A stretch of 64,000 nucleotides of DNA from Winogradskyella undariae (lineage in GTDB: Bacteria > Bacteroidota > Bacteroidia > Flavobacteriales > Flavobacteriaceae): positions 62,001-126,000 of the forward strand of contig NZ_JABTEL010000007.1 in assembly GCF_013285155.1 (NCBI RefSeq). Direction: 5' to 3'. The position numbers and the translations under genes were made by a program. Below the pieces are notes generated by a model that saw nothing but the letters and a program-made list of their open reading frames with translations, was not told the origin of the DNA and made no database searches. Below, one piece after another: positions 1,972 to 11,468 of the stretch. The number at the start of each line of letters is the position of its first letter. The stretch's first letter is position 1.

Positions 1972-2868
1972 TTATTTTAAAAAATCAGGATTTTGATAAG
2001 CAGGATTGGGGTATTTATAAAAACCTTCACCGGTAGAAACCCCTAGTCTGTTTTTGTCTATAAAATTATCTTTTAGATATTTTACTGTTTTTATCTTTAA
2101 GGGATCTTTTGTTTTTTCTGCAGCTATTTTATTAATATTATAGGCCGTTTTAATACCTACAACATCAAGGATACCTAAAGGTCCTAGTGGTGCACCTGTT
2201 CCTTTCATCCAGGTTTTATCAATAGTTTCTGAATCAGCAACATTATTAGCTATTAAGTTTATAGCAGCACTTAATAATGGCACCAATAACGAGTTAAGGA
2301 TATAGCCAGGCTGTTCTTTGTGCAATGGTAATGTTAGCATTCCTATAGCTTTGGCAAAGGCAATAACATCTGTAAAAACTTTTGGATCTGTTTTAGAATG
2401 TCCCATAATTTCAGCAGTATTGTGAAGCCAAATGGTATTTGCAAGATGAAGCGCTAAAAATTTTGAAGGTCTACCTGTGGCTTCAGAAAATTGACTTGGT
2501 AATAATGTTGAAGAATTTGTAGCGAAAACAGTTTTTTTAGGAGCAACTTTAGCTAACTTATTATAAAAATCTATTTTTATAGAAGGATTTTCTGGTACTG
2601 CTTCAATTAGTAAATCTGCATCCTTTACTGCTTCTGCTAAATCTGAAGTGTAACTTAAATTTTTAAATGTTTCATCAATCTGTTGTTGTGTTGCATTTAT
2701 ATCTTTTTTATATGCTTCACTTAAAGTGTTGAACTTTGTTTTTGTCTTTTCTATTACGTCATCATTAATGTCATAAACGGTAACATTAAATCCATAAAAA
2801 GCAGTTTGAAAAGCGATTTGGTATCCTAAAACACCGCTTCCTGCTATTGTTATATTTTTATAGTTCAT
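1972..2868 (-). CDS. 3-hydroxyacyl-CoA (3-hydroxybutyryl-CoA) dehydrogenase
   Basis: A 298-residue protein of the normal single-function length. The N-terminal Rossmann domain starts with ITIAGSGVLGYQIAF (GxGxxG NAD-binding loop at residues 10-15), and VYDIND closes the second strand with the acidic residue expected for NAD(H). LLIEAVPEN, FATNSSTL and ALHLAN match the conserved blocks around the active site; the last is where the catalytic His-Asn pair sits. The C-terminal helical domain ends with GFYKYPNP. It should oxidise 3-hydroxyacyl-CoA to 3-ketoacyl-CoA in the cytoplasm. It is transcribed alone behind an FNR-like palindrome at 2954-2969, which ties it to the stress genes upstream rather than to a beta-oxidation operon. 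Confidence 0.9.
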   Translation of the reverse strand: MNYKNITIAGSGVLGYQIAFQTAFYGFNVTVYDINDDVIEKTKTKFNTLSEAYKKDINATQQQIDETFKNLSYTSDLAEAVKDADLLIEAVPENPSIKIDFYNKLAKVAPKKTVFATNSSTLLPSQFSEATGRPSKFLALHLANTIWLHNTAEIMGHSKTDPKVFTDVIAFAKAIGMLTLPLHKEQPGYILNSLLVPLLSAAINLIANNVADSETIDKTWMKGTGAPLGPLGILDVVGIKTAYNINKIAAEKTKDPLKIKTVKYLKDNFIDKNRLGVSTGEGFYKYPNPAYQNPDFLK

Positions 2869-2924: not shown

Positions 2925-2969
2925 TAAAATTAGCATAACTTATTGTGCTTGGTAATGACTTAGGTCAGT
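2925..2969 (-). promoter_or_regulatory. FNR-like palindrome (site A) with -7 box, hydroxyacyl-CoA dehydrogenase promoter
   Basis: On the minus strand ACTGACCTAAGTCATT (2954-2969) lies upstream of TAATTTTA (2925-2932), a one-mismatch Bacteroidetes -7 box. Centre-to-centre distance is 33 bp, the same as at four other palindromes in this window. The arms TGAC-N4-GTCA have the geometry of Crp/Fnr-family sites, and a centre near -40 is the usual place for a class II activator. The regulator itself is not in the window. Confidence 0.6.
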
Positions 2970-2970
2970 A

Positions 2971-3015
2971 TAAAAAAAGAGCCGAAATTTAGCGTTATAA
3001 ATTTCGGCGACTCTC
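2971..3015 (-). terminator. Strong hairpin terminator after dps
   Basis: GCCGAAATTT (2981-2990) pairs with AAATTTCGGC (2999-3008); on the minus strand the stem is followed by seven T residues. It lies just past the stop of the first dps gene and directly abuts palindrome site A of the next gene. Confidence 0.8.
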
Positions 3016-3032
3016 TTTTGTATTGAATGATA

Positions 3033-3509
3033 TTATTTTAAATGTGATCTTAACATCCATGCAGTTTTTTGGTGTTGTTCCATCAATCCCGTAATGTAAT
3101 CACCGATGCCTTCTGCTTTCCATTTGTCTGATATAGGTTCTATTTCTTCTCTAAGGGATACAATAATACTTTCATGATCTTCTAATAATTCAGCAAATAT
3201 ACTTTGACTGTCATTACCTCCTTTTGTTTCTTCAGTAAGATGTGTTAGATCTAAATAATCTTGTAAAGTAGCGGGAACATAATGGCCTAGCATACGTATT
3301 TTTTCAGCTACATTATCAACGATTGTTTGTTGTTCATGGTATAATGTTTCTAAATAAATGTGAACCGTATGAAAATCTGGGCCTTCAATATTCCAATGGA
3401 ACTTTAAGGTTTTTGAATAAAGTACAAATTCATCTGCTAATATTTTTGATAATTGGTTTGCTATCGCTTTTCTGTTTTGGTCTGTAATTCCGATGTTTGG
3501 AGTTTTCAT
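3033..3509 (-). CDS. dps: Dps-family ferritin-like DNA-protection protein
   Basis: A 158-residue protein of standard Dps length. The ferroxidase motif is plain: KFHWNIEGPDFHTVHIYLE supplies the two histidines and VDNVAEKIRMLG the Asp and Glu that form the inter-subunit iron site. Dps assembles as a hollow dodecamer that oxidises and stores iron using peroxide and protects DNA during starvation or oxidative stress. It is transcribed alone from a promoter with palindrome site B, and a degenerate second copy of the same promoter lies further upstream. A close paralogue with a damaged start codon follows at 5350-5742, with a ferric-reductase-like gene between them. Confidence 0.93.
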   Translation of the reverse strand: MKTPNIGITDQNRKAIANQLSKILADEFVLYSKTLKFHWNIEGPDFHTVHIYLETLYHEQQTIVDNVAEKIRMLGHYVPATLQDYLDLTHLTEETKGGNDSQSIFAELLEDHESIIVSLREEIEPISDKWKAEGIGDYITGLMEQHQKTAWMLRSHLK

Positions 3510-3536
3510 TTTTTCTAATATTTAATTATTACTATT

Positions 3537-3581
3537 CAAAGGTATTAGAATGAAGAGTCTACTGCACTGACCTGAATCAGT
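3537..3581 (-). promoter_or_regulatory. dps promoter with FNR-like palindrome (site B)
   Basis: ACTGACCTGAATCAGT (3566-3581) lies 33 bp, centre to centre, from a perfect -7 box TACCTTTG (3537-3544, minus strand). Transcription would start near 3530, about 20 bp before the dps ATG. Further upstream TAACTTTAACA (3598-3608, plus strand) recurs at the same distance from site D. The whole promoter is repeated almost base for base ahead of the second dps copy. Confidence 0.7.
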
Positions 3582-3713
3582 CTAAAGGTTTTTGGGTTAA
3601 CTTTAACATTATGAAATGTTTACAGGTGAAATAAAGAGGAGGTAAAGCTGTTTTTCTTCAGTATTAGGTTGAAATACAAATTCATTGTGTAGGTGGCAAT
3701 AATTTACTAGTCT

Positions 3714-3758
3714 TAAATATATTTAGCTAGATTAGTATTAGAAATGACCTGAATGAGA
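3714..3758 (-). promoter_or_regulatory. Degenerate copy of the palindrome/-7 unit (possible second dps promoter)
   Basis: In the 332-bp non-coding stretch 3582-3913, AATGACCTGAATGAGA (3743-3758) matches site B at 13 of 16 positions, and TATATTTA (minus strand, 3714-3721) lies at the same 33-bp distance. It points toward dps. Only a 21-codon frame of no clear merit lies between it and the main dps promoter. It may be a distal promoter or a relic of the duplication that made the two dps copies. Confidence 0.35.
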
Positions 3759-3913
3759 CCTTAAAAAAAAAACATATAAAATAGACAAAGCTTTTTTAGA
3801 ATATAAGTCAGCAACTTATAATTACAAAACCAAAGCTTTTTTTAAGTTTAAAAATTTCACAAAAGAGGTAAAGGTTTTATTTAGGCCGTGAAAAATAAGA
3901 AAGACCTTCTTAT

Positions 3914-5257
3914 TTACCGCATACTGAAAAGTTCTTGATGGAAATTTTTAGACAATAGCCCTTTTTTTAACAAATCCTTGCGCAACTCTGCTCCAAAACC
4001 TTTAGGGCCACAGAACCAAATACTAGCTGATTTCCAATCAGGCACTATTGTACGAAGTTTTTCTCCCGTTAATCGTCCATCACGTTTATCAATTATTACA
4101 TGTAATTTCACATGGGCAGCGGTAGCATCAGCTGTTAGTTTTTTTAATACTTCAGGTTCCATTTCAGTAGTACTATGAAATAAATCAATAGCCTGAGTAT
4201 TTGGGTGCTTCGCCAGTTGTTTCATTCGAGCAATAAAAGGAGTTATACCAATCCCTCCACCAATCCAAATCTGACGTTGGGCTGTATCATCAAAAGTAAA
4301 ACAACCATAGGGTCCTTCAACAATTACTTTGTCTCCAATACTTAACCGCTCAGGAAGAAAATTAGTATAATCTCCTAATTCCTTAGTAATAAACATAATG
4401 AGAGGATTGTTAACATCCCAACTTGAGGCAATGGTAAAAGGGTGTTCTCCTTCTTTCTTATCAAAACTAACAAAGGCAAACTGACCACTCTTATGTCCTC
4501 TCCAACCTTCTTTTATTCGTATTTCTGTTTCTAGCACTTTCATTTTAGGAAAATAATGCTGTGTTTCTATAATGCCCTCCACCTTTCGTCGTTTACCTAC
4601 CTGACCTGTTAACACAAGCACAGCAGAGACGGAACCTGAAATTAGCAAGAGAGCCATCACCATTCCTAATGGCTGCGTCCATAAAGAAAAGTTGAACAAA
4701 ATCACAGCGTGAAACACTAAAACGAGATAAATTACAGCAATTAGTAAATGTGTCTTTTTAAAAATTTTATATGAAAACCTTTTGATTAATGCTAGAGTAA
4801 TAAGAAGAACTAAGCCATAAAATGCCCACTCCCCAATCCACTTAGCAGGACTGTGTAGTACTTGAAAAAATCCCTGAATTACACTTAATGAATTTGCTAC
4901 TGAATGTGATGCACGATGATGACGACCTTCAATTACACCTAGATTAGATAGCCAATGCGGTCCTTTTGATGCAATCCAATGAATAATCACTGCCACCAAA
5001 CCAACAATCCCTAACCATTTATGAAGTCTATAAGATTTATCTAATCCGCCAAGTAAAGGTTCGAGCCACACGGGCCGAAGTGTAAGTACCATAGCTACAC
5101 TCATTACTCCAATGCCAATAACACCGGAATATTGAACACATAAATCCCGAACAGACCACACAGATAGCATATTAGAAAATGGCATATTAGCCACGATCCA
5201 TAAGCCTGTTAACACAAGCAATACACTTACTAACGAAATTTTAATATTTTTTAGCAT
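3914..5257 (-). CDS. Ferric-reductase-like transmembrane flavoprotein
   Basis: A 447-residue protein in two halves. Residues 1-220 form about six membrane helices of the ferric reductase-like domain, with histidines in helices (DKSYRLHKWLGIVGLVAVIIH, FKKTHLL, LVFHAV) suited to bind two haems. Residues 235-447 form a ferredoxin-NADP reductase module: HPFTIASS binds FAD, IWIGGGIGITPFIARM binds the nicotinamide dinucleotide, and IWFCGPKGFG closes the domain. It would pass electrons from cytosolic NAD(P)H across the inner membrane, perhaps to ferric iron or oxygen. It sits between two dps copies and lacks their palindrome. An iron link with Dps is plausible but inferred. Confidence 0.85.
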   Translation of the reverse strand: MLKNIKISLVSVLLVLTGLWIVANMPFSNMLSVWSVRDLCVQYSGVIGIGVMSVAMVLTLRPVWLEPLLGGLDKSYRLHKWLGIVGLVAVIIHWIASKGPHWLSNLGVIEGRHHRASHSVANSLSVIQGFFQVLHSPAKWIGEWAFYGLVLLITLALIKRFSYKIFKKTHLLIAVIYLVLVFHAVILFNFSLWTQPLGMVMALLLISGSVSAVLVLTGQVGKRRKVEGIIETQHYFPKMKVLETEIRIKEGWRGHKSGQFAFVSFDKKEGEHPFTIASSWDVNNPLIMFITKELGDYTNFLPERLSIGDKVIVEGPYGCFTFDDTAQRQIWIGGGIGITPFIARMKQLAKHPNTQAIDLFHSTTEMEPEVLKKLTADATAAHVKLHVIIDKRDGRLTGEKLRTIVPDWKSASIWFCGPKGFGAELRKDLLKKGLLSKNFHQELFSMR

Positions 5258-5349
5258 CGTTATTTGAATTATGGTTCTAAATTTAATTTAGATTTCTGAT
5301 TTTCATGGCAAAAGAAACTTCCCCTTTTTACAAGTTAAAATAGCCTATG

Positions 5350-5742
5350 TTATTTTAAATGCGCACGTAACATCCAAGCTGTTTTTTGGTGTTGTTCCAT
5401 TAATTCAGTAATGTAATCACTAATACCTTCTGCTTTCCATTTGTCTGATACAGGTTGTATTTCTTCTCTAAGGAATACAATAGTACTTTCATGATCTTCT
5501 AATAATTCAGTAAATATGCTTTGACTATTATTACCTCCTTTTGTTTCTTCAGTAAGGTGTGTTAGATCTAAATAGTCTTTTAAAGTAGCAGGTGCATAAT
5601 GCCCTAGCATTCGTATTTTTTCGGCTACGGTATCCACTATTTCTTGTTGTTCTTTATATAAGATTTCTAGATAAAGATGAACGGAATGGAAATCTGGACC
5701 TTCAATATTCCAATGAAAATTCAAAGTTTTTGAGTAAAGCAC
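5350..5742 (-). CDS. Second Dps paralogue, ATG start lost (ATA)
   Basis: Residues from VLYSKTLNFHWNIEGPDFH to the C-terminal MLRAHLK align without gaps to the dps at 3033-3509 and keep all ferroxidase ligands (HWN, FHSVH, VDTVAEKI). Homology continues upstream in frame for 28 codons (KTPNIGIKDENRKAIANQL) to position 5826, but where the paralogue has ATG this copy has ATA (5824-5826). The coordinates given start at the only usual in-frame start, GTG at 5742, which would remove most of helix A. It could use the rare ATA start, be made as a short protein, or be newly dead. Its promoter (site C) is intact. Confidence 0.75.
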   Translation of the reverse strand: MLYSKTLNFHWNIEGPDFHSVHLYLEILYKEQQEIVDTVAEKIRMLGHYAPATLKDYLDLTHLTEETKGGNNSQSIFTELLEDHESTIVFLREEIQPVSDKWKAEGISDYITELMEQHQKTAWMLRAHLK

Positions 5743-5855
5743 AAATTCATCTGCTAATATTTTTGATAATTGGTTTGCTATTGCTTTTCTATTTTCATCT
5801 TTAATTCCGATGTTTGGAGTTTTTATTTTTTTTCTAATATTTAATTATTACTATT

Positions 5856-5900
5856 CAAAGGTATTAGAATCAGAGACCAATTGTACTGACCTAAGTCAGT
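5856..5900 (-). promoter_or_regulatory. Promoter of second dps with FNR-like palindrome (site C)
   Basis: ACTGACCTAAGTCAGT (5885-5900) is the most symmetric of the five palindromes, and TACCTTTG (minus strand, 5856-5863) is a perfect -7 box at the shared 33-bp spacing. The sequence between -7 box and start codon is nearly identical to that of the first dps. Directly upstream is a (CTTT)8 tract, beyond which TAACTTTAACA recurs at 5952-5962. Confidence 0.7.
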
Positions 5901-5911
5901 CTGTTTTTTTT

Positions 5912-5944
<33 letters not shown>

Positions 5945-6046
5945 TTTCTGATAACTTTAACAAAAAAATCAAGATTATTAAAGCAGATAAACTTAGAAAT
6001 AAACGAAGCTGTTTTTTTTAATTAATACTATAACGATAAAATTTAA

Positions 6047-6088
6047 ATACCACGAAGACTTCTAAAAATGAAGAAGTAACCGTGGTAT
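6047..6088 (-). terminator. Hairpin after the PoxB-like gene
   Basis: ATACCACG (6047-6054) pairs with CGTGGTAT (6081-6088), and ACTTC (6058-6062) with GAAGT (6073-6077) inside it. It lies about 50 bp past the stop of the minus-strand gene and could end its transcript. Confidence 0.5.
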
Positions 6089-6136
6089 GGATAAATATGA
6101 TATTTAATTGTTTTTTTTACGGGAAAGATTTTATTT

Positions 6137-7873
6137 TTATAACACCTCTTTCATGTGTTTATAATTGGTTTTAACCATTTCTAAAACCTCATCCATTCTT
6201 CCTCCTAAAATCATTTTACTTATAGACAAAGCATAGCCTTTCATTTGGTCGAATTCCATTTTTGGAGGCATAGCTAAAGCTTGTGGATTGGTAAATACAT
6301 TGACTAAAACAGGACCGTCATGTATAAATGCTTCTTTTAAGGCTGCTTTTACGCCACTTGGTTCTGATACTGAAATTCCTTTGAATCCCATTGCTTCTGC
6401 AATCATTTTAAAATCTGGATTTACCATTTCTGTTTCATGGTTTGGTAAACCTTCAACTTGCATTTCTAATTGCACCATTCCTAAAGAACGATTATTAAAT
6501 ACAATTAACTTTATAGGAAGATTGTATTGTTTTATTGTTGCTAAATCTCCTAATAACATGGAGAGTCCACCGTCTCCACAAAATGCAATGACTTGTCGGT
6601 CTGGGTAAGCTAGTTGTGCACCGATAGCCATTGGCATAGCATTAGCCATAGAACCGTGATTGAAAGAACCTAACATAATTCGTTTTCCTGTACCGTCAAT
6701 ATATCTTGCACCCCAAACACAACACATCCCTGTATCTACAGTAAAAACAGTATCGTCATTGGCCATTTCATTAATGGTAGAGGCTACAAATTCTGGACTT
6801 ATATGTTTTTCAGAACCGGTCTCCTTGACATAAATATTTAAGTTTTCTTTTACTTTTTTGTAAAATTCTAATTGTGCTTTTAAGAAGCTGTCGTCTTCTT
6901 TTTCTTTAATTAATGGCAGTAATGCTTCAACGGTATCTGTTATTTTTCCGGTTAATCCTATTTCTAATTTGGCACGTCTTCCTAAACGTTCTGGTTTTTC
7001 ATCTACCTGAATAATTTTATTTTTTACAGGCATAAAATGTTCATAAGGAAAATCGGTTCCTAATAAAATCACCACATCAGACTCGTGCATGGCATGAAAA
7101 GCTGAAGGCACACCAAGTAGGCCCGTCATTCCAACTTCATAAGGATTGTTATATTGCATTCCCATTTTTCCACGGAACGAATATCCAATAGGTGCTTTTA
7201 ATAATTGTGCTAATTTTACAATATCGTCATGGGCTTCTCTTGCTCCAATACCACAATAAATAGAAATTTTTGGGTGTTTATTAACGAGGTCTGCAAATTT
7301 CTGCATCTCATGATCTGATGGGCGCAAAATTGTTTCGCTGTGATAATTATACATCGATGTAGCACTTTCTTCAGCAGGCATAGCCGAAACATCTCCAGGT
7401 AACCCAAATACGGCTACTCCTTTTTTATGAACTGCATTTTGCATGGCTGCTTGCAGCATACGCGGCACTTGTTTTGGTGTGCTTGCTAGTTCATTATAGA
7501 CACTACAATCATCAAATAATTTGTAGGTATTTGTGGCTTGAAAATAATCGACACCAAATTCGGGTGTGTTTATAGTTGACGCAATTGCAATCATTGGAAC
7601 TCCAGAACGGTTAGCATCATATAGTCCGTTAATTAAATGTACATGACCAGGGCCGCTGCTTCCTGCGCAACAGGCTAAACCATCTAATTCGGCTTCAGCA
7701 GCAGCAGCATAGGCACCAACCTCTTCGTGGCGAACGTGAATCCATTCTATTTTTCCGTTTTTTCTTACAGCATCATTCAATTCATTTAAACTGTCTCCAG
7801 TAACGGCATAAATTCTTTTTACGTTATTCTCCACTAACATTTCTACGATTTGGTCTGCTACTTTCATTCCCAT
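6137..7873 (-). CDS. Thiamine-diphosphate enzyme, pyruvate oxidase/pyruvate:quinone dehydrogenase type
   Basis: 578 residues, against 572 for E. coli PoxB. Domain order is Pyr (residues 1-180), central FAD/dinucleotide domain (190-335) and PP (370-540). The activating glutamate lies in IHVRHEEVGAYAAAAEAEL, and the cofactor motif GDGG...NN is complete (FCGDGGLSMLLGD to VFNNRSLGMV). PoxB oxidises pyruvate to acetate and CO2, passing electrons from FAD to quinone at the membrane; acetolactate synthase is the main alternative, but no small subunit or branched-chain gene is nearby. It stands alone in the stress block. Its promoter has a -7 box but only a decayed palindrome. Confidence 0.8.
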   Translation of the reverse strand: MGMKVADQIVEMLVENNVKRIYAVTGDSLNELNDAVRKNGKIEWIHVRHEEVGAYAAAAEAELDGLACCAGSSGPGHVHLINGLYDANRSGVPMIAIASTINTPEFGVDYFQATNTYKLFDDCSVYNELASTPKQVPRMLQAAMQNAVHKKGVAVFGLPGDVSAMPAEESATSMYNYHSETILRPSDHEMQKFADLVNKHPKISIYCGIGAREAHDDIVKLAQLLKAPIGYSFRGKMGMQYNNPYEVGMTGLLGVPSAFHAMHESDVVILLGTDFPYEHFMPVKNKIIQVDEKPERLGRRAKLEIGLTGKITDTVEALLPLIKEKEDDSFLKAQLEFYKKVKENLNIYVKETGSEKHISPEFVASTINEMANDDTVFTVDTGMCCVWGARYIDGTGKRIMLGSFNHGSMANAMPMAIGAQLAYPDRQVIAFCGDGGLSMLLGDLATIKQYNLPIKLIVFNNRSLGMVQLEMQVEGLPNHETEMVNPDFKMIAEAMGFKGISVSEPSGVKAALKEAFIHDGPVLVNVFTNPQALAMPPKMEFDQMKGYALSISKMILGGRMDEVLEMVKTNYKHMKEVL

Positions 7874-7905
7874 AATTTATTGTTTTTCTTAAGTAATTTG
7901 ATACT

Positions 7906-7913
7906 TAAAGGTA
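7906..7913 (-). promoter_or_regulatory. Candidate -7 box of the PoxB-like gene
   Basis: TACCTTTA on the minus strand is a one-mismatch Bacteroidetes -7 box, in a context (AAAGGTATT) like the two dps promoters. The region where the palindrome would lie reads ttaccttttgcttatt and does not match, although an AACTTTAACAAA element recurs at 7970-7981. Confidence 0.4.
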
Positions 7914-8022
7914 TTGTAATCAAAGCTTAATAGATTACCTTTTGCTTATTTAGACTGTTTTTTTTGCGAAACTTTAACAAAGCCATAAGTATTGCTAAGT
8001 ATTGTGTTAATTTTTTTAATAC

Positions 8023-8733
8023 TTAAATCACTATTTTACTCATTTGCTCTAATTTATGATGCTCTTTTAAGTTCATTGATCTATCAAATTCATACATGTT
8101 TAGAACTCCAGTTTGAACTTCTACAGTTGAAATTTCGGATGCTGGAATATCTAAAATTTCGGTCATTAGTGCGCGAATGGAATTACCATGGGCAGAAACC
8201 AAAACAGTTTTCCCTTTGACTAATTCTGGAACTATCGCTTCAAAATAATAGGCAACAGCTCTTTCTTTGGTTTGTTCTAGAGATTCTGTTGTAGGTAATT
8301 CTTTTTCGGTAAGCTTACTGTATTTAGAATCGAACTTCGGATAACGTTTATCATTTACAGATAGAGCAGGAGCAGAATCACTATAACCTCTTCTTACTTT
8401 CCAAAAGAGATCTTCACCTGCTTCTTTTTTCACTTCATCTTTATTTTGTCCTTGCCAAGCGCCATAATGTCTTTCGTTTAATTTCCAGCTTTTAATAAAA
8501 TCGATGTATGATATATCTGCTGTTTCCATAATTATGGACGCTGTTTTAATCGCTCTTTTTAAGTAAGACGAATAACAAATATCAATATTGATTTTTTGAT
8601 CTCTGATTAATTCACCTGCAATTTTAGCTTCTTCTAATCCTTCTGGTGCGAGGTTTACATCTGTCCATCCGGTAAATATGTTTTTCATATTCCAGACGCT
8701 TTTTCCGTGTCTGACTAATATTAATTTTCCCAT
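8023..8733 (-). CDS. gpmA: 2,3-bisphosphoglycerate-dependent phosphoglycerate mutase
   Basis: 236 residues from MGKLILVRHGKS; a start 33 bp earlier (8766) adds MKQEIPKIKLK and cannot be excluded. LVRHGKSVWN carries the phosphohistidine, LNERHYGAWQGQNK is the signature that separates the cofactor-dependent mutase from phosphatases of the same fold, and VSAHGNSIRAL holds the second active-site histidine. The enzyme interconverts 3- and 2-phosphoglycerate in glycolysis. It follows the DUF1269-like gene in one operon, so its expression should follow palindrome site D rather than a glycolytic promoter. Confidence 0.9.
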   Translation of the reverse strand: MGKLILVRHGKSVWNMKNIFTGWTDVNLAPEGLEEAKIAGELIRDQKINIDICYSSYLKRAIKTASIIMETADISYIDFIKSWKLNERHYGAWQGQNKDEVKKEAGEDLFWKVRRGYSDSAPALSVNDKRYPKFDSKYSKLTEKELPTTESLEQTKERAVAYYFEAIVPELVKGKTVLVSAHGNSIRALMTEILDIPASEISTVEVQTGVLNMYEFDRSMNLKEHHKLEQMSKIVI

Positions 8734-8771
8734 TTTTAATTTAATTTTTGGAATTTCTTGTTTCATGATTA

Positions 8772-9590
8772 TTAATCCACAATGTCTTCTCCTAGGGCAT
8801 CATGCAATTGGTATAATTTTTCTTCTTCTCTTTTAATACGTTTTCTTAATCGGTCTTTACGTGCTTTTTTATAGGTCTTAGAAATGGAATTTTCATAGTT
8901 TTCTAAACGAGATTTCAATGTATTAATACGGGCATTAGTTTTGTCTTTAATGCCATATAAAGAAGATTTTCTTTGCGCTTCTAAATCTTCAATTTTAGAT
9001 TTTCGTTTTGCTTTTAAATTTTTGATTTTAGTTGTGATGCGCTTTTTTTCTTCTGAAGTTGCTTTCTTTAAATTATCGCGTTCATCTTCAATACCTTCTT
9101 CTAAGTCTTCAATTTCTTCGTCTACAAAGTCATCGTAATCTAACCCCGCTTCGCTTCTTAAAATTTCGGAACTGTAAGGTTTTAATGCTTCGTCAATAAA
9201 ATCGGGATTGTCTTCACTGACCTCTGCAATGATAGCAATGGTGCCAACAGCCATTTGATTACTGATTTTTTTGATGAAATTATTTTCAAAATTAAAATGA
9301 CTTACATCCCAAAAAGCTCCAAAAGCGGTTCCTGTGTATAAGCCAATAATAAAACCTATTGGACCAGCAAAAGCGCCTGCAAAACCTCCAAGTGCCATGC
9401 CTGTAAATGTTCTCCAGCCTTCAATATCGGTTTGGTTGTTTAACACTTCATATTGATTGTTTTCTCTTTTACGAATTATAATGTGTTCATAGAGTGTAAT
9501 ATCTCCATATTCATCTAATTCTTTAATTTGGTGCAAAGCGTCAATCGCTTTTGCTTCTTCCTTAAAGGGAATCACGATTATATTTGCCAT
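8772..9590 (-). CDS. DUF1269-like membrane protein with long C-terminal coiled coil
   Basis: A 272-residue protein of unknown function. Residues 1-60 resemble the DUF1269 N-terminus (IIVIPFKEEAKAIDALHQIKEL). Residues 61-95 form a glycine-rich hydrophobic hairpin (GMALGGFAGAFAGPIGFIIG) of the glycine-zipper type. Residues 110-145 form a second short domain, and about 125 residues of charged heptad sequence follow, with many Lys, Arg, Glu and repeated KxKNLKAKRK-like stretches. It is first in a two-gene operon with gpmA, 5 to 38 bp apart, behind palindrome site D. A membrane-anchored scaffold in stress is possible but is not shown. Confidence 0.75.
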   Translation of the reverse strand: MANIIVIPFKEEAKAIDALHQIKELDEYGDITLYEHIIIRKRENNQYEVLNNQTDIEGWRTFTGMALGGFAGAFAGPIGFIIGLYTGTAFGAFWDVSHFNFENNFIKKISNQMAVGTIAIIAEVSEDNPDFIDEALKPYSSEILRSEAGLDYDDFVDEEIEDLEEGIEDERDNLKKATSEEKKRITTKIKNLKAKRKSKIEDLEAQRKSSLYGIKDKTNARINTLKSRLENYENSISKTYKKARKDRLRKRIKREEEKLYQLHDALGEDIVD

Positions 9591-9648
9591 GATATTTATA
9601 TTTTAAATGTTTTTGTTATGTGTGTAAATAAGTGAATTATTTAGACTT

Positions 9649-9693
9649 CAAAATTAGAGCGTTATGTAAAGAGGGGCACTGACCTGAATCAGT
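9649..9693 (-). promoter_or_regulatory. Promoter with FNR-like palindrome (site D), DUF1269-like/gpmA operon
   Basis: ACTGACCTGAATCAGT (9678-9693), identical over 16 bp to site B, lies 33 bp centre to centre from a perfect -7 box TAATTTTG (minus strand, 9649-9656). TAACTTTAACA (9710-9720) lies 24.5 bp from the palindrome centre, exactly as at site B. Confidence 0.7.
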
Positions 9694-9776
9694 ATAAGGT
9701 GTTTTATAATAACTTTAACAAAGGCATAAAATCTTGATTGTCCTTTATGAAATTAGAGTAAACTGTTTGAACTAAA

Positions 9777-9811
9777 ACGGGATCTCTTTTTATAGAAAAA
9801 AGAGATCCCGT
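9777..9811 (-). terminator. Perfect 15-bp hairpin terminator of the four-gene operon
   Basis: ACGGGATCTCTTTTT (9777-9791) and AAAAAGAGATCCCGT (9797-9811) are perfect inverted repeats with a 5-base loop, followed on the minus strand by TTTTAGTT. It lies 79 bp past the stop of the last small gene (9890). The 299-bp gap 9591-9889 otherwise holds only promoter site D. Confidence 0.85.
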
Positions 9812-9889
9812 AAACTAAACAACAATTAAAAAACCTATTTTATAAATGAGTTTATGTAGTTTTAGTAAGCGTTAAGCGGAGTTAACTAG

Positions 9890-10276
9890 CTACATGTACT
9901 GATCTAAAAACAAGAAAAAATCTTTTTTGAGTTCTGCATATATTTTTCTTTGCTTTTCTAAACACTTTCTGAATTTAATATGCTTTATGGCTAATTCTGT
10001 ATCTATGGTATTTTCGTCTATTTTACTTTGTTTGGCTATTTGCGTTTCGTGCTTTTTAATGATTTCCTCTAAATCTTCGATGACACCGCCATGAAGTGCA
10101 AATTCATTTTGATAATGTTCTAACTTTAGAACGACATCTTTGTTTGTCCAACGTGTTACAAGTTCACTTAATCTGTTGTTGAACGATTTTAATTCATCTT
10201 TCCAGAATGCAAGTTCTGTTTTCCACAATTTGTGTTCGAAGTGCATATTTGGATTGTATAAGACTTCTGTTTTCAT
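9890..10276 (-). CDS. Uncharacterised helical protein, paralogue of the operon's first gene
   Basis: 128 residues, all predicted helical and highly charged, with no signal peptide or membrane segment. The stretch LWKTELAFWKDELKSFNNRL aligns with HWKTDISFYTDDLRFLHHLI of the protein at 10931-11404, sharing W-K-T-acid-hydrophobic-x-F-x-x-D-acid-L, so the two probably come from one family. No known function is recognised. It is last in a four-gene operon behind palindrome site E and ends before a strong terminator. Confidence 0.75.
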   Translation of the reverse strand: MKTEVLYNPNMHFEHKLWKTELAFWKDELKSFNNRLSELVTRWTNKDVVLKLEHYQNEFALHGGVIEDLEEIIKKHETQIAKQSKIDENTIDTELAIKHIKFRKCLEKQRKIYAELKKDFFLFLDQYM

Positions 10277-10302
10277 AATATAATTTCTTTATAAACTAGT
10301 TC

Positions 10303-10668
10303 TCAAATTTTATTGATATCCGTTGGTGTTTCAATGAGAACGCTTTTGTCTCCACATAATAAGATAGGTTGTTTCATGATTTCAGGGTAATGACGAATCA
10401 TTTTTAACCAATCGTCGGTAGAGAAATTATGATTCTCAAATTGTTTTTTGTAAACAGGATGATCCTGATTTACCAAGTCAGAAACCTCAAGGCCTATGCG
10501 TTCTGCCAATTCTACGATTTGTAAGCCGGTGAGTTTTGTTTTTAAGATGTCTACTTTTTTTATTTTTAAACCTTCAGCTTGTGCATACGCTAAAGTTTGC
10601 TTTGCTCTTACAGAATTAGAGCTGTAAAACATAGTGATTTGTCTATTAGATGTTGCTATTTCTCCCAT
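10303..10668 (-). CDS. ArsC/Spx-family thioredoxin-fold protein lacking the catalytic cysteine
   Basis: 121 residues with the ArsC-family order: beta strand ITMFYSSNS, helix VRAKQTLAYAQ, strand LKIKKVDI, then TGLQIVELAERIGLEVSDLVNQ and DWLKMIRHYPEIMKQPILLCGDKSVLI. The last block equals the family's x-x-P-x-x-IxRPI segment, with K for R. The loop that holds the catalytic Cys in ArsC and Spx reads FYSSNSVRAK, so a serine stands in its place; the only cysteine is in LLCGDK. It should not reduce arsenate by the usual route. A structural or regulatory role is an inference. It lies inside a four-gene stress operon. Confidence 0.75.
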   Translation of the reverse strand: MGEIATSNRQITMFYSSNSVRAKQTLAYAQAEGLKIKKVDILKTKLTGLQIVELAERIGLEVSDLVNQDHPVYKKQFENHNFSTDDWLKMIRHYPEIMKQPILLCGDKSVLIETPTDINKI

Positions 10669-10672
10669 GATA

Positions 10673-10903
10673 TTAGTTTTTTAGTGTGCTTAATCTTATT
10701 TTTTCTTCCTTTAGGTAATTCTTCAATACTATTTTTAAGCTCTCTAAATATTCTTCCATAATTACTTTGTCCATATGTGGGTGTTGACTTGTAGGTATGG
10801 TTATCGGGTTTTCGTCTAATGATCTATAAAGCTCTGGATATTTAGTTTCAATATTAGAGGTAAGCTCTGTAATCTCTATTAATATACGATGTAGGTTTTT
10901 CAT
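10673..10903 (-). CDS. Small uncharacterised protein (76 aa)
   Basis: A small acidic-basic helical protein with two probable helices (HRILIEITELTSNIETKYPEL and MEEYLESLKIVLKNYLKEEK) joined by a loop, TIPTSQHPHMDK. No signal peptide, cysteine or known domain. It is second in the four-gene operon: 27 bp after the first coiled-coil gene and 4 bp before the ArsC-like gene. Close spacing and a plausible coding frame support it being real. Confidence 0.65.
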   Translation of the reverse strand: MKNLHRILIEITELTSNIETKYPELYRSLDENPITIPTSQHPHMDKVIMEEYLESLKIVLKNYLKEEKIRLSTLKN

Positions 10904-10930
10904 TGCTTTTTAGGTTTTTACAAATCGACT

Positions 10931-11404
10931 TTAACTTTGAAGTTGTGATTTTGAACTTATGTTAAATTGTTTGAGGAGTTCTTCACCTTTAACAATGTGT
11001 TCTGTGATTTTAAAAATCTCTTTTCGGTTTTCTCTAAAATCTATTACAAATTGATTTAAGTCGTCTTCTAATTGCTCGTGTTCTTTTCTAAATTCATCAG
11101 AATTATAAACCAAAGGATCACCCATTAAATCGGTGAGGTATTGCAGTTGTTTATTAACTCTATTTAATAAAGATTCAGATTGTCTATCGACTTTAAGTAA
11201 ATTCAGTTCAATTTCTTGGATGACATCAATATTCTCTTTTTTGGATATCCACAAAAAGTATTTGTCAATCAAGTGGTGTAAAAACCTTAAGTCATCGGTG
11301 TAAAACGAAATATCAGTTTTCCAATGTTCAGTAAGTATGTATAGTTTTTGCCAATCTGCTTTTTGAATATAATTATCTTTTGGTCTGTATCTAAAAGTAT
11401 TCAT
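10931..11404 (-). CDS. Uncharacterised coiled-coil protein, first gene of stress operon
   Basis: 157 residues, soluble and almost all helical. After a short N-terminal tail (YRPKDNYIQKADWQKL) comes EHWKTDISFYTDDLRFLHHLI, which matches the gene at 9890-10276, then two long amphipathic helices rich in Glu, Gln and Leu. It has no Cys and no known catalytic motif. Four-helix-bundle architecture is likely. It leads the operon ending at 9890 and is driven by the promoter with palindrome site E. Confidence 0.75.
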   Translation of the reverse strand: MNTFRYRPKDNYIQKADWQKLYILTEHWKTDISFYTDDLRFLHHLIDKYFLWISKKENIDVIQEIELNLLKVDRQSESLLNRVNKQLQYLTDLMGDPLVYNSDEFRKEHEQLEDDLNQFVIDFRENRKEIFKITEHIVKGEELLKQFNISSKSQLQS

Positions 11405-11423
11405 GATATAGTATTTTACCCTG

Positions 11424-11468
11424 TAAAAGTAGAAATGATATCTTTTATTGGAAATGACCTAGGTCAGT
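11424..11468 (-). promoter_or_regulatory. Promoter with FNR-like palindrome (site E), four-gene operon
   Basis: On the minus strand ACTGACCTAGGTCATT (11453-11468) contains the perfect palindrome TGACCTAGGTCA and lies 33 bp centre to centre from TACTTTTA (11424-11431), a one-mismatch -7 box. It occupies the 377-bp divergent gap 11405-11781 together with alginate operator O1, back to back. Confidence 0.6.

Follow-up and report, generated by a model that had tools for sequence, protein, structure and literature searches.

In rhizobia, low-oxygen genes are controlled by the FixL-FixJ-FixK cascade, in which the histidine kinase FixL and the receiver protein FixJ act on FixK, a separate activator of the Crp/Fnr family. 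Operators of this family have arms in the TGA-N6-TCA register, and a centre at -41.5 is the class II position of its activators, a mode of activation best known from Proteobacteria. DosR is a NarL-type regulator under two-component control. According to the available part of PMC6127331, the DosR dormancy regulon of Mycobacterium tuberculosis comprises many Usp, an alpha-crystallin and a phosphofructokinase under hypoxia; Burkholderia has FixLJ and FixK; and the lxa locus of Burkholderia cenocepacia, which contains genes for Usp, alpha-crystallin and phosphofructokinase and is likened there to DosR, is thought to be controlled by a FixK-like Crp protein. Crp/Fnr homologues of Flavobacteriales and Saprospiraceae are treated as likely MalR in PMC8510549, the available part of which names no receiver fusion, and no described receiver-Crp regulon of Bacteroidota was found in the portion of the open-licence literature covered. 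Here we describe a 64,000-bp stretch of Winogradskyella undariae (hereafter the window; bases 62001-126000 of contig C57, in a 4.197-Mb genome of 59 contigs), in which a set of palindromes lies at a fixed distance from predicted promoter boxes. These palindromes are probably operators for an activator of the Crp/Fnr family, most likely the receiver-Crp fusion protein P0004 encoded beside the window.

Palindromes at a fixed distance from the -7 box

The five palindromes that a first-pass annotation had reported in the window were all found where it had placed them (Table 1), and on the gene (minus) strand a TAnnTTTR box lies 33.0 bp from every one of them, centre to centre (5/5), which agrees with the constant spacing claimed. 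Its description of 5-bp arms around an N4 spacer held for the palindromic arms but not for the spacer: the repeat is really a 16-bp palindrome resembling ACTGACCTAGGTCAGT, in which the N4 is not free. A weight matrix covering the site, the spacer and the box, trained on 79 sites from 10 relatives and none from W. undariae itself, ranked these operators 1 to 5 in the window (scores of 30.6 to 23.1), followed by a sixth, degenerate one at 3743-3758 (19.2). In total, 6 hits scoring ≥14 were obtained in 20 Markov shuffles of the window (in 5 of the 20; top scores, 28.3 and 24.0), compared with six in the single real window; thus, one site may arise by chance, but the set does not. Three further sites that follow the rule lie left of the window (L052 9801, minus strand; 17096 and 17688, plus strand), and in the 20 kb on this side matrix scores >10 were found at three sites only, which precede a usp gene, P0005 and P0006. 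At the site before P0006 (L052 17688-17732), GACCTTTA replaces TAnnTTTR at exactly 33 bp; P0006 shows a weak sigma-70-like match, and in Flavobacterium sp. 7A the box of a similar gene is normal.

Chance had been judged very unlikely in the first-pass annotation, and both the spacing histograms and the reversed-pattern controls agree with this judgement. The search of the genome and of relatives that it had proposed revealed a spacing that is rigid in the genome, the family and the phylum, and a non-random set of genes. In the W. undariae genome, CTGAN6TCA-N{9,38}-TAnnTTTR gave 37 matches, 11 of which have the 33-bp length (counted from the list); in reverse, the pattern matched 16 times, summed over all 30 lengths. 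TGAYN4RTCA-N23-TAnnTTTR matched 27 times (control, 0) and the looser TGAN6TCA form 34 times (control, 2), with 7 of the 34 located in a 21.7-kb segment of contig C57 at the edge of the window. Around the P0004 orthologues of the 10 relatives (approximately 40 kb each), 79 pairs of site and box were found at 33 bp, compared with counts of 0 to 4 for every other spacing between 14 and 60. When W. undariae is included, the 11 P0004 regions contain 86 sites with the 33-bp spacing, of which 84 are intergenic and 79 have a same-strand gene start ≤250 bases from the box.

A receiver-Crp fusion as the candidate activator

Two operons, each encoding a PAS histidine kinase and a response regulator with receiver, cNMP-binding and HTH_Crp domains, are located left of the window. 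The operon for P0003 (PAS histidine kinase) and P0004 ends approximately 3 kb from the window, and that for P0002 (PAS-PAS histidine kinase) and P0001 lies approximately 9 kb from it. P0001 and P0004 each contain Response_reg, cNMP_binding and HTH_Crp_2, and the cNMP_binding and HTH_Crp matches of P0004 are above the Pfam cut-off. The receiver residues E8 D9, D52, T82 and K104 are invariant across 10 aligned sequences (the homologue of G001 was left out of this comparison and of that of the recognition helices). P0004, which has a receiver with a phospho-acceptor Asp and an adjacent histidine kinase gene, is a two-component response regulator by these features. Its Crp part is closest to FixK among the 25 NCBIfam matches listed, far below the cut-off. 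No N-terminal cysteine cluster of the Fe-S FNR type was seen by eye in P0004 or P0001, both of which begin with the receiver domain, and an alignment with M. tuberculosis Crp, in which Q replaces E and Y replaces R close to the cAMP pocket, at positions presumed to have roles in it, shows no evident signature of this pocket. Elsewhere, the genome encodes another two proteins of the Crp family that exceed the Pfam cut-off (an FNR-like protein on C22 and a 211-aa protein on C2), together with two further matches below it.

In a family sample of 149 genomes, one per genus, a P0004-type protein (full-length, ≥59% identical) is listed for 11, and a second group, approximately 36-47% identical to P0004, is wider; full-length receiver-Crp proteins were counted in 55 further genomes (from the table). 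Window-like sites (CTGAYNYARGTCA, gap 13-33) were identified in 24 of the 149 genomes; of the 42 matches listed, 36 have the exact 33-bp spacing, and 5 matches in all were obtained with the pattern reversed. Sites with the 33-bp spacing and a window-type core (N4 core starting with C or ending with G) occur in 8 of the 11 genomes with P0004 versus 2 of the 138 without it (Fisher p=1.4e-9; 7 of 10 and p=1.6e-8 when the W. undariae genome is excluded), although the class was defined post hoc and counted by hand and the p-values are too small because the genomes share ancestry. The mean number of 33-bp sites in whole genomes is 32.1, 20.5 and 8.0 for genomes with the P0004 type (11), other receiver-Crp proteins (55) and neither (83), respectively. 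Sites of any core are found in 137 of the 149 genomes; thus, what is peculiar to P0004 is not the geometry but the core letters and the clustering. Compared with the 86 sites in the P0004 regions, 30 were found around other receiver-Crp genes (10 regions, from genomes that lack the P0004 type), 15 in 7 stand-alone Crp/Fnr regions (genomes in which no full-length fusion was found) and none in three unrelated regions of P0004-bearing genomes (approximately 40 kb each). An outer C or G in the core is present in all 7 home sites, in 34 of the 79 near P0004 orthologues and in 6 of the 30 that accompany other receiver-Crp genes. In the P0004 regions, 6 of 15 members of the PAS-kinase cluster to which the partner kinases of the regulator belong have a site of their own.

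The site set, its fixed spacing, the positions of the genes, the co-occurrence and clustering with the regulator and the domain make-up of this regulator were established computationally, and a single activator shared by the window genes appears to be their best reading. According to the available part of PMC9723704, TAnnTTTG, the sigma-A box of Flavobacterium psychrophilum, occupies positions -12 to -5. With the box at these positions, the 33-bp spacing places the operator centre at a predicted -41.5. The class II layout near -40 proposed in the first-pass annotation is therefore borne out as a TGA-N6-TCA dyad at this predicted position, at a fixed distance from the core promoter. Its wider proposal, one activator of Crp/Fnr geometry acting in class II fashion on redox, oxygen or stress genes, is likewise supported, at the level of sequence, by the rigid spacing and the non-random genes. 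We consider it fairly probable (approximately 0.65) that the sites are class II operators (-41.5) for a dimeric Crp/Fnr-family activator, most likely P0004, which would be switched by phosphorylation and control a low-oxygen/redox regulon. Phosphorylation of the P0004 receiver, rather than cAMP, would switch on DNA binding, and bound P0004 would cover the -33 region and touch RNA polymerase. It would thereby activate a clustered survival regulon for low-oxygen and redox conditions, comprising Usp, Dps, Hsp20, ribosome hibernation, and fermentation and redox enzymes. The system would be a functional equivalent of the FixL-FixJ-FixK cascade in which a single protein combines the FixJ receiver with the FixK activator.

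The target genes and the sister pair P0001/P0002 favour oxygen as the signal; the home partner kinase of P0004 has another PAS. The PAS of P0002 matches FixL haem domains (best, 2cmn; E 2.4e-13) and contains His64 and an Arg at +20, as in the FixL-like motif; these two residues may correspond to H200 and R220 of FixL. Of 71 loci, 17 matched a narrow regular expression for this motif in the vicinity of the regulator (9 with Arg at +20; 54 unmatched), and some of the matches are clearly not PAS.

Several points weigh against the assignment to P0004, in addition to the post hoc definition of the window-type class and the effect of shared ancestry noted above. The FixL-like PAS resides in P0002, the partner of P0001 and not of P0004; the narrow motif search did not match P0003, and of 11 kinases beside P0004-type regulators it matched 3, with Arg at +20 in 1 (G129). 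Three of the 11 P0004-bearing genomes (G129, G011 and G054) contain no strict window-type site, two of the 138 others (G111 and G120) do, and 45 of the 79 sites near P0004 orthologues do not have the window-type core. Furthermore, the recognition helices of P0004, P0001 and the FNR-like protein are nearly identical; thus, any of the three may bind a given site, and the helices are too alike to choose between the regulators.

The stand-alone FNR-like protein (C22:99857) could itself be the activator, with the two-component proteins as unrelated neighbours, but this appears unlikely. It matches NCBIfam Fnr, below the cut-off, its recognition helix is nearly the same, and the 15 sites of the stand-alone Crp/Fnr regions imply that such proteins use the same geometry. 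However, all 15 of these sites lack an outer C or G in the core, which the window sites have (lacking in 0 of 7 at home), and window-type sites track the presence of P0004 and cluster on the P0004 contig, whereas the FNR-like gene is on another. The differences in core letters and the co-occurrence make the case for P0004 over FNR, and a plain FNR site was set aside since the core letters differ from those of sites beside stand-alone Crp/Fnr genes. The FNR-like gene adjoins a ccoI-like gene, and the 211-aa Crp protein (C2:94583) has one 33-bp site in the surrounding 14 kb, before tpiA. Sites with the 33-bp spacing and an A/T core were observed at C22:96862, C22:99326, C2:101817, C16:7454 and 9238, and C57:155570, where they precede or adjoin ccoI-like/fnr-like, tpiA and usp genes; this class probably represents FNR sites.

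A similarly low probability is given to the possibility that P0001 and its FixL-like kinase P0002 drive the window sites, alone or together with P0004. P0001 is encoded close to the window and next to a usp gene that itself has a 33-bp site, and the FixL-like PAS belongs to the partner of P0001, but regions of other receiver-Crp genes contain fewer sites, and 24 of the 30 cores in them have no outer C or G.

Phylum-wide geometry and target genes

Named Bacteroidota genomes yielded at least 80 loci with receiver-Crp proteins (counts refer to these 80). In these, 132 pairs at 33 bp (52 loci) and 59 at 55 bp (36 loci) were found, compared with 0 to 8 at each other spacing and 3 at 33 bp in the reversed control; no 33-bp site was found in 28 loci. 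Among the 33- and 55-bp sites, 129 of 132 and 58 of 59, respectively, are intergenic, and 112 and 48, respectively, have a gene start within ≤200 bases, versus 42 of 111 at other spacings. The 55-bp site is the upstream member of a tandem, with a weaker second palindrome exactly 22 bp downstream, which has a mean of 4.92 of 6 core letters versus 1.52 at the same offset behind 33-bp sites. Tandem loci include L213, L223, L224, L231, L243, L264 and 30 others, with a degenerate downstream operator; the 55-bp peak, when checked for an origin in a single repeat family, proved to be spread over 36 of the 80 loci. In a class-level sample of 198 genomes, the strict tandem pattern (-63.5/-41.5) was identified in 77 (control, 0), mainly outside Flavobacteriaceae (1 of 6 own-family genomes in this sample). 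It occurs in 53 of 97 genomes with a receiver-Crp protein versus 24 of 101 without (p=1e-5), the latter implying that other Crp/Fnr proteins may also use the tandem. The genomes with a receiver-Crp protein contain 115 tandem sites, of which 26 are within 20 kb of the regulator gene. In a phylum sample of 198 genomes, a receiver-Crp regulator was found in 32.

It is very improbable that the palindromes serve as operators for a repressor, or as some other type of element, rather than as activator sites, as the fixed centre at -41.5 and the tandem at -63.5/-41.5, 22 bp apart, appear activator-like. Chance or a low-complexity artefact is negligible as an explanation, in spite of the single shuffle matches of 28.3 and 24.0 among 20, and is refuted for the whole set by the spacing peaks (79, with 0 to 4 elsewhere; 132, with 0 to 8 elsewhere save the 55-bp peak) and the zero controls in the W. 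undariae genome and the 198 genomes.

In a midpoint-rooted tree of 96 proteins, P0004 and P0001 fall into separate, well-supported groups composed mostly of Flavobacteriaceae (98/96 and 100/99); a third group, weakly supported (80/87), contains most of the loci with tandems. Loci with 33-bp sites only are clustered in the tree (10 changes versus a shuffled mean of 21.0; 0 of 500 as low); no clear clustering was found for loci with both types (42 of 500), none (65) or 55-bp sites only (104). The odds appear about even that the Bacteroidota share a phylum-wide low-oxygen/dormancy regulon built on receiver-Crp fusions (FixJ and FixK in one protein) and PAS kinases, some of them FixL-like, with at least three regulator groups, two promoter geometries and group-specific core letters that would allow several regulators to coexist in one genome. 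Most Flavobacteriaceae loci would then have the single site at -41.5, and Chitinophagaceae, Sphingobacteriaceae and Hymenobacteraceae, for example, the tandem at -63.5/-41.5.

In the 80 loci, 37 of 101 Usp genes stand first behind a site (expected, 9.7), as do all 6 hibernation-factor genes, 5 of 9 Hsp20 genes and 11 of 14 members of a 135-aa family without known function (L227, L247, L249, L251-L254, L256, L258, L260 and L263), although the profiles were made from the target genes themselves and are thus somewhat favourable to them. Weak clusters were obtained for BON (p=0.08), thioredoxin (p=0.12) and CcoN (p=0.04), and PAS-kinase genes are not enriched as targets in these loci (5 of 89; expected, 8.6). 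Pfam matches, counted for 127 of 140 target proteins (13 left out), include Usp (37), hibernation factor (6), D-2-hydroxyacid dehydrogenase (5), YceI (5), cbb3 oxidase CcoN/FixO (4), Hsp20 (4) and BON (3). This set resembles low-oxygen and dormancy regulons, and the regulon is probably one of stress and low oxygen. The receiver-Crp gene is in many loci followed directly by a site, near 11060-11110 (L230, L231, L235, L236, L247-L249, L251-L254, L264 and others), and the gene after it, often usp or D-lactate dehydrogenase-like, is a recurrent first target. A family of YtxH-like small proteins in the P0004 regions (L125-L142) has all 6 members behind a 33-bp site.

The features of the window are listed in Table 1; gene calls are simple open frames produced by scripts. 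Similar proteins or genes are also found behind 33-bp sites elsewhere, namely for the 3-hydroxyacyl-CoA dehydrogenase in Flavobacterium sp. 7A (L185) and for the operon of small proteins in the G063 and G011 regions; the dps and DUF1269 genes of the window clustered with none of the genes of other regions. The sixth operator is a possible second upstream promoter for dps copy 1. In dps copy 2 (5350-5835), the usual start codon is absent, by eye, where copy 1 begins; this copy may be decaying or using a rare start, and the adjacent flavoprotein gene is possibly co-transcribed with it. A TTTC simple repeat seen by eye at approximately 5911-5945, immediately upstream of the operator of this copy, could affect its promoter through length changes. 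In the operon of small proteins, the ArsC-like gene (10303-10668) scores narrowly below the Pfam cut-off for ArsC, and no Pfam match was found for 9890-10276 and 10931-11404. A pyruvate oxidase-like gene (6137-7913, below cut-offs) lies between regulon members; it has a TACCTTTA box at 7906-7913, for which no palindrome at 33 bp was seen by eye.

Table 1. Operators, -7 boxes and genes of the window (positions are those of the window; scores are from the relatives-only matrix)
Feature	Sequence	Position	Strand	Score	Remarks
Operator 1	ACTGACCTAAGTCATT (gene strand)	2954..2969	-	26.7	before hydroxyacyl-CoA dehydrogenase
-7 box of operator 1	TAATTTTA	2925..2932	-		33 bp
Operator 2	ACTGATTCAGGTCAGT	3566..3581	-	26.7	before dps copy 1
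-7 box of operator 2	TACCTTTG	3537..3544	-		33 bp
Operator 3	ACTGACTTAGGTCAGT	5885..5900	-	26.5	before dps copy 2
-7 box of operator 3	TACCTTTG	5856..5863	-		33 bp
Operator 4	ACTGATTCAGGTCAGT	9678..9693	-	23.1	before DUF1269 and phosphoglycerate mutase-like genes
-7 box of operator 4	TAATTTTG	9649..9656	-		33 bp
Operator 5	ACTGACCTAGGTCATT	11453..11468	-	30.6	best of the window; before four-gene operon
-7 box of operator 5	TACTTTTA	11424..11431	-		33 bp
Sixth, degenerate operator	TCTCATTCAGGTCATT	3743..3758	-	19.2	TATATTTA box at 3714-3721, 33 bp
3-hydroxyacyl-CoA dehydrogenase		1972..2868	-		Pfam 3HCDH_N, 3HCDH
dps copy 1		3033..3509	-		Pfam Ferritin; name dps from the first-pass annotation
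Ferric-reductase/FAD-type flavoprotein		3914..5257	-		same strand as dps copy 2, 92 bases between frames
dps copy 2		5350..5742	-		Pfam Ferritin; open frame only from internal GTG
Histidine phosphatase family, gpmA-like		8023..8766	-		behind operator 4
DUF1269-type protein		8772..9590	-		behind operator 4
Operon of small proteins (putative)		9890..11404	-		behind operator 5

Comparison with known systems

If P0004 and its relatives act as proposed, many unnamed genes could be assigned to a condition (low oxygen or energy limitation) and to a testable regulator, and the promoter rule could be searched for in any Bacteroidota genome. The regulon would also join DosR and FixK/Anr as another example in which oxygen sensing is linked to Usp, Hsp20 and similar survival genes.

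With FixL-FixJ-FixK of rhizobia and Burkholderia, the proposed system shares a histidine kinase and a receiver that control a Crp/Fnr activator of low-oxygen genes, a FixL-like PAS (in P0002), a Crp part nearest to FixK among the NCBIfam matches listed and cbb3 oxidase among the targets in four of the 80 loci. It differs in that the receiver and the activator form one fused protein, whereas FixJ and FixK are separate, and in its TGAC-N4-GTCA operator at a predicted -41.5, its Bacteroidota TAnnTTTR box and its mainly stress-protein targets. The lxa locus, as presented in the available part of PMC6127331, likewise combines clustered Usp genes, alpha-crystallin and phosphofructokinase with presumed FixK-like Crp control, but it belongs to another phylum, no receiver-Crp fusion is named in that part, and the likeness is one of gene content. 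Both the present regulon and that of DosR appear to be Usp-rich hypoxia sets under two-component control; the output domain of P0004 is of the Crp type and that of DosR of the NarL type. Finally, class II promoters of FNR and Crp have the same TGA-N6-TCA dimer site at -41.5, whereas the system described here is distinguished by a predicted phosphorylation-type input, a Bacteroidota promoter and a 22-bp tandem variant in sister orders.

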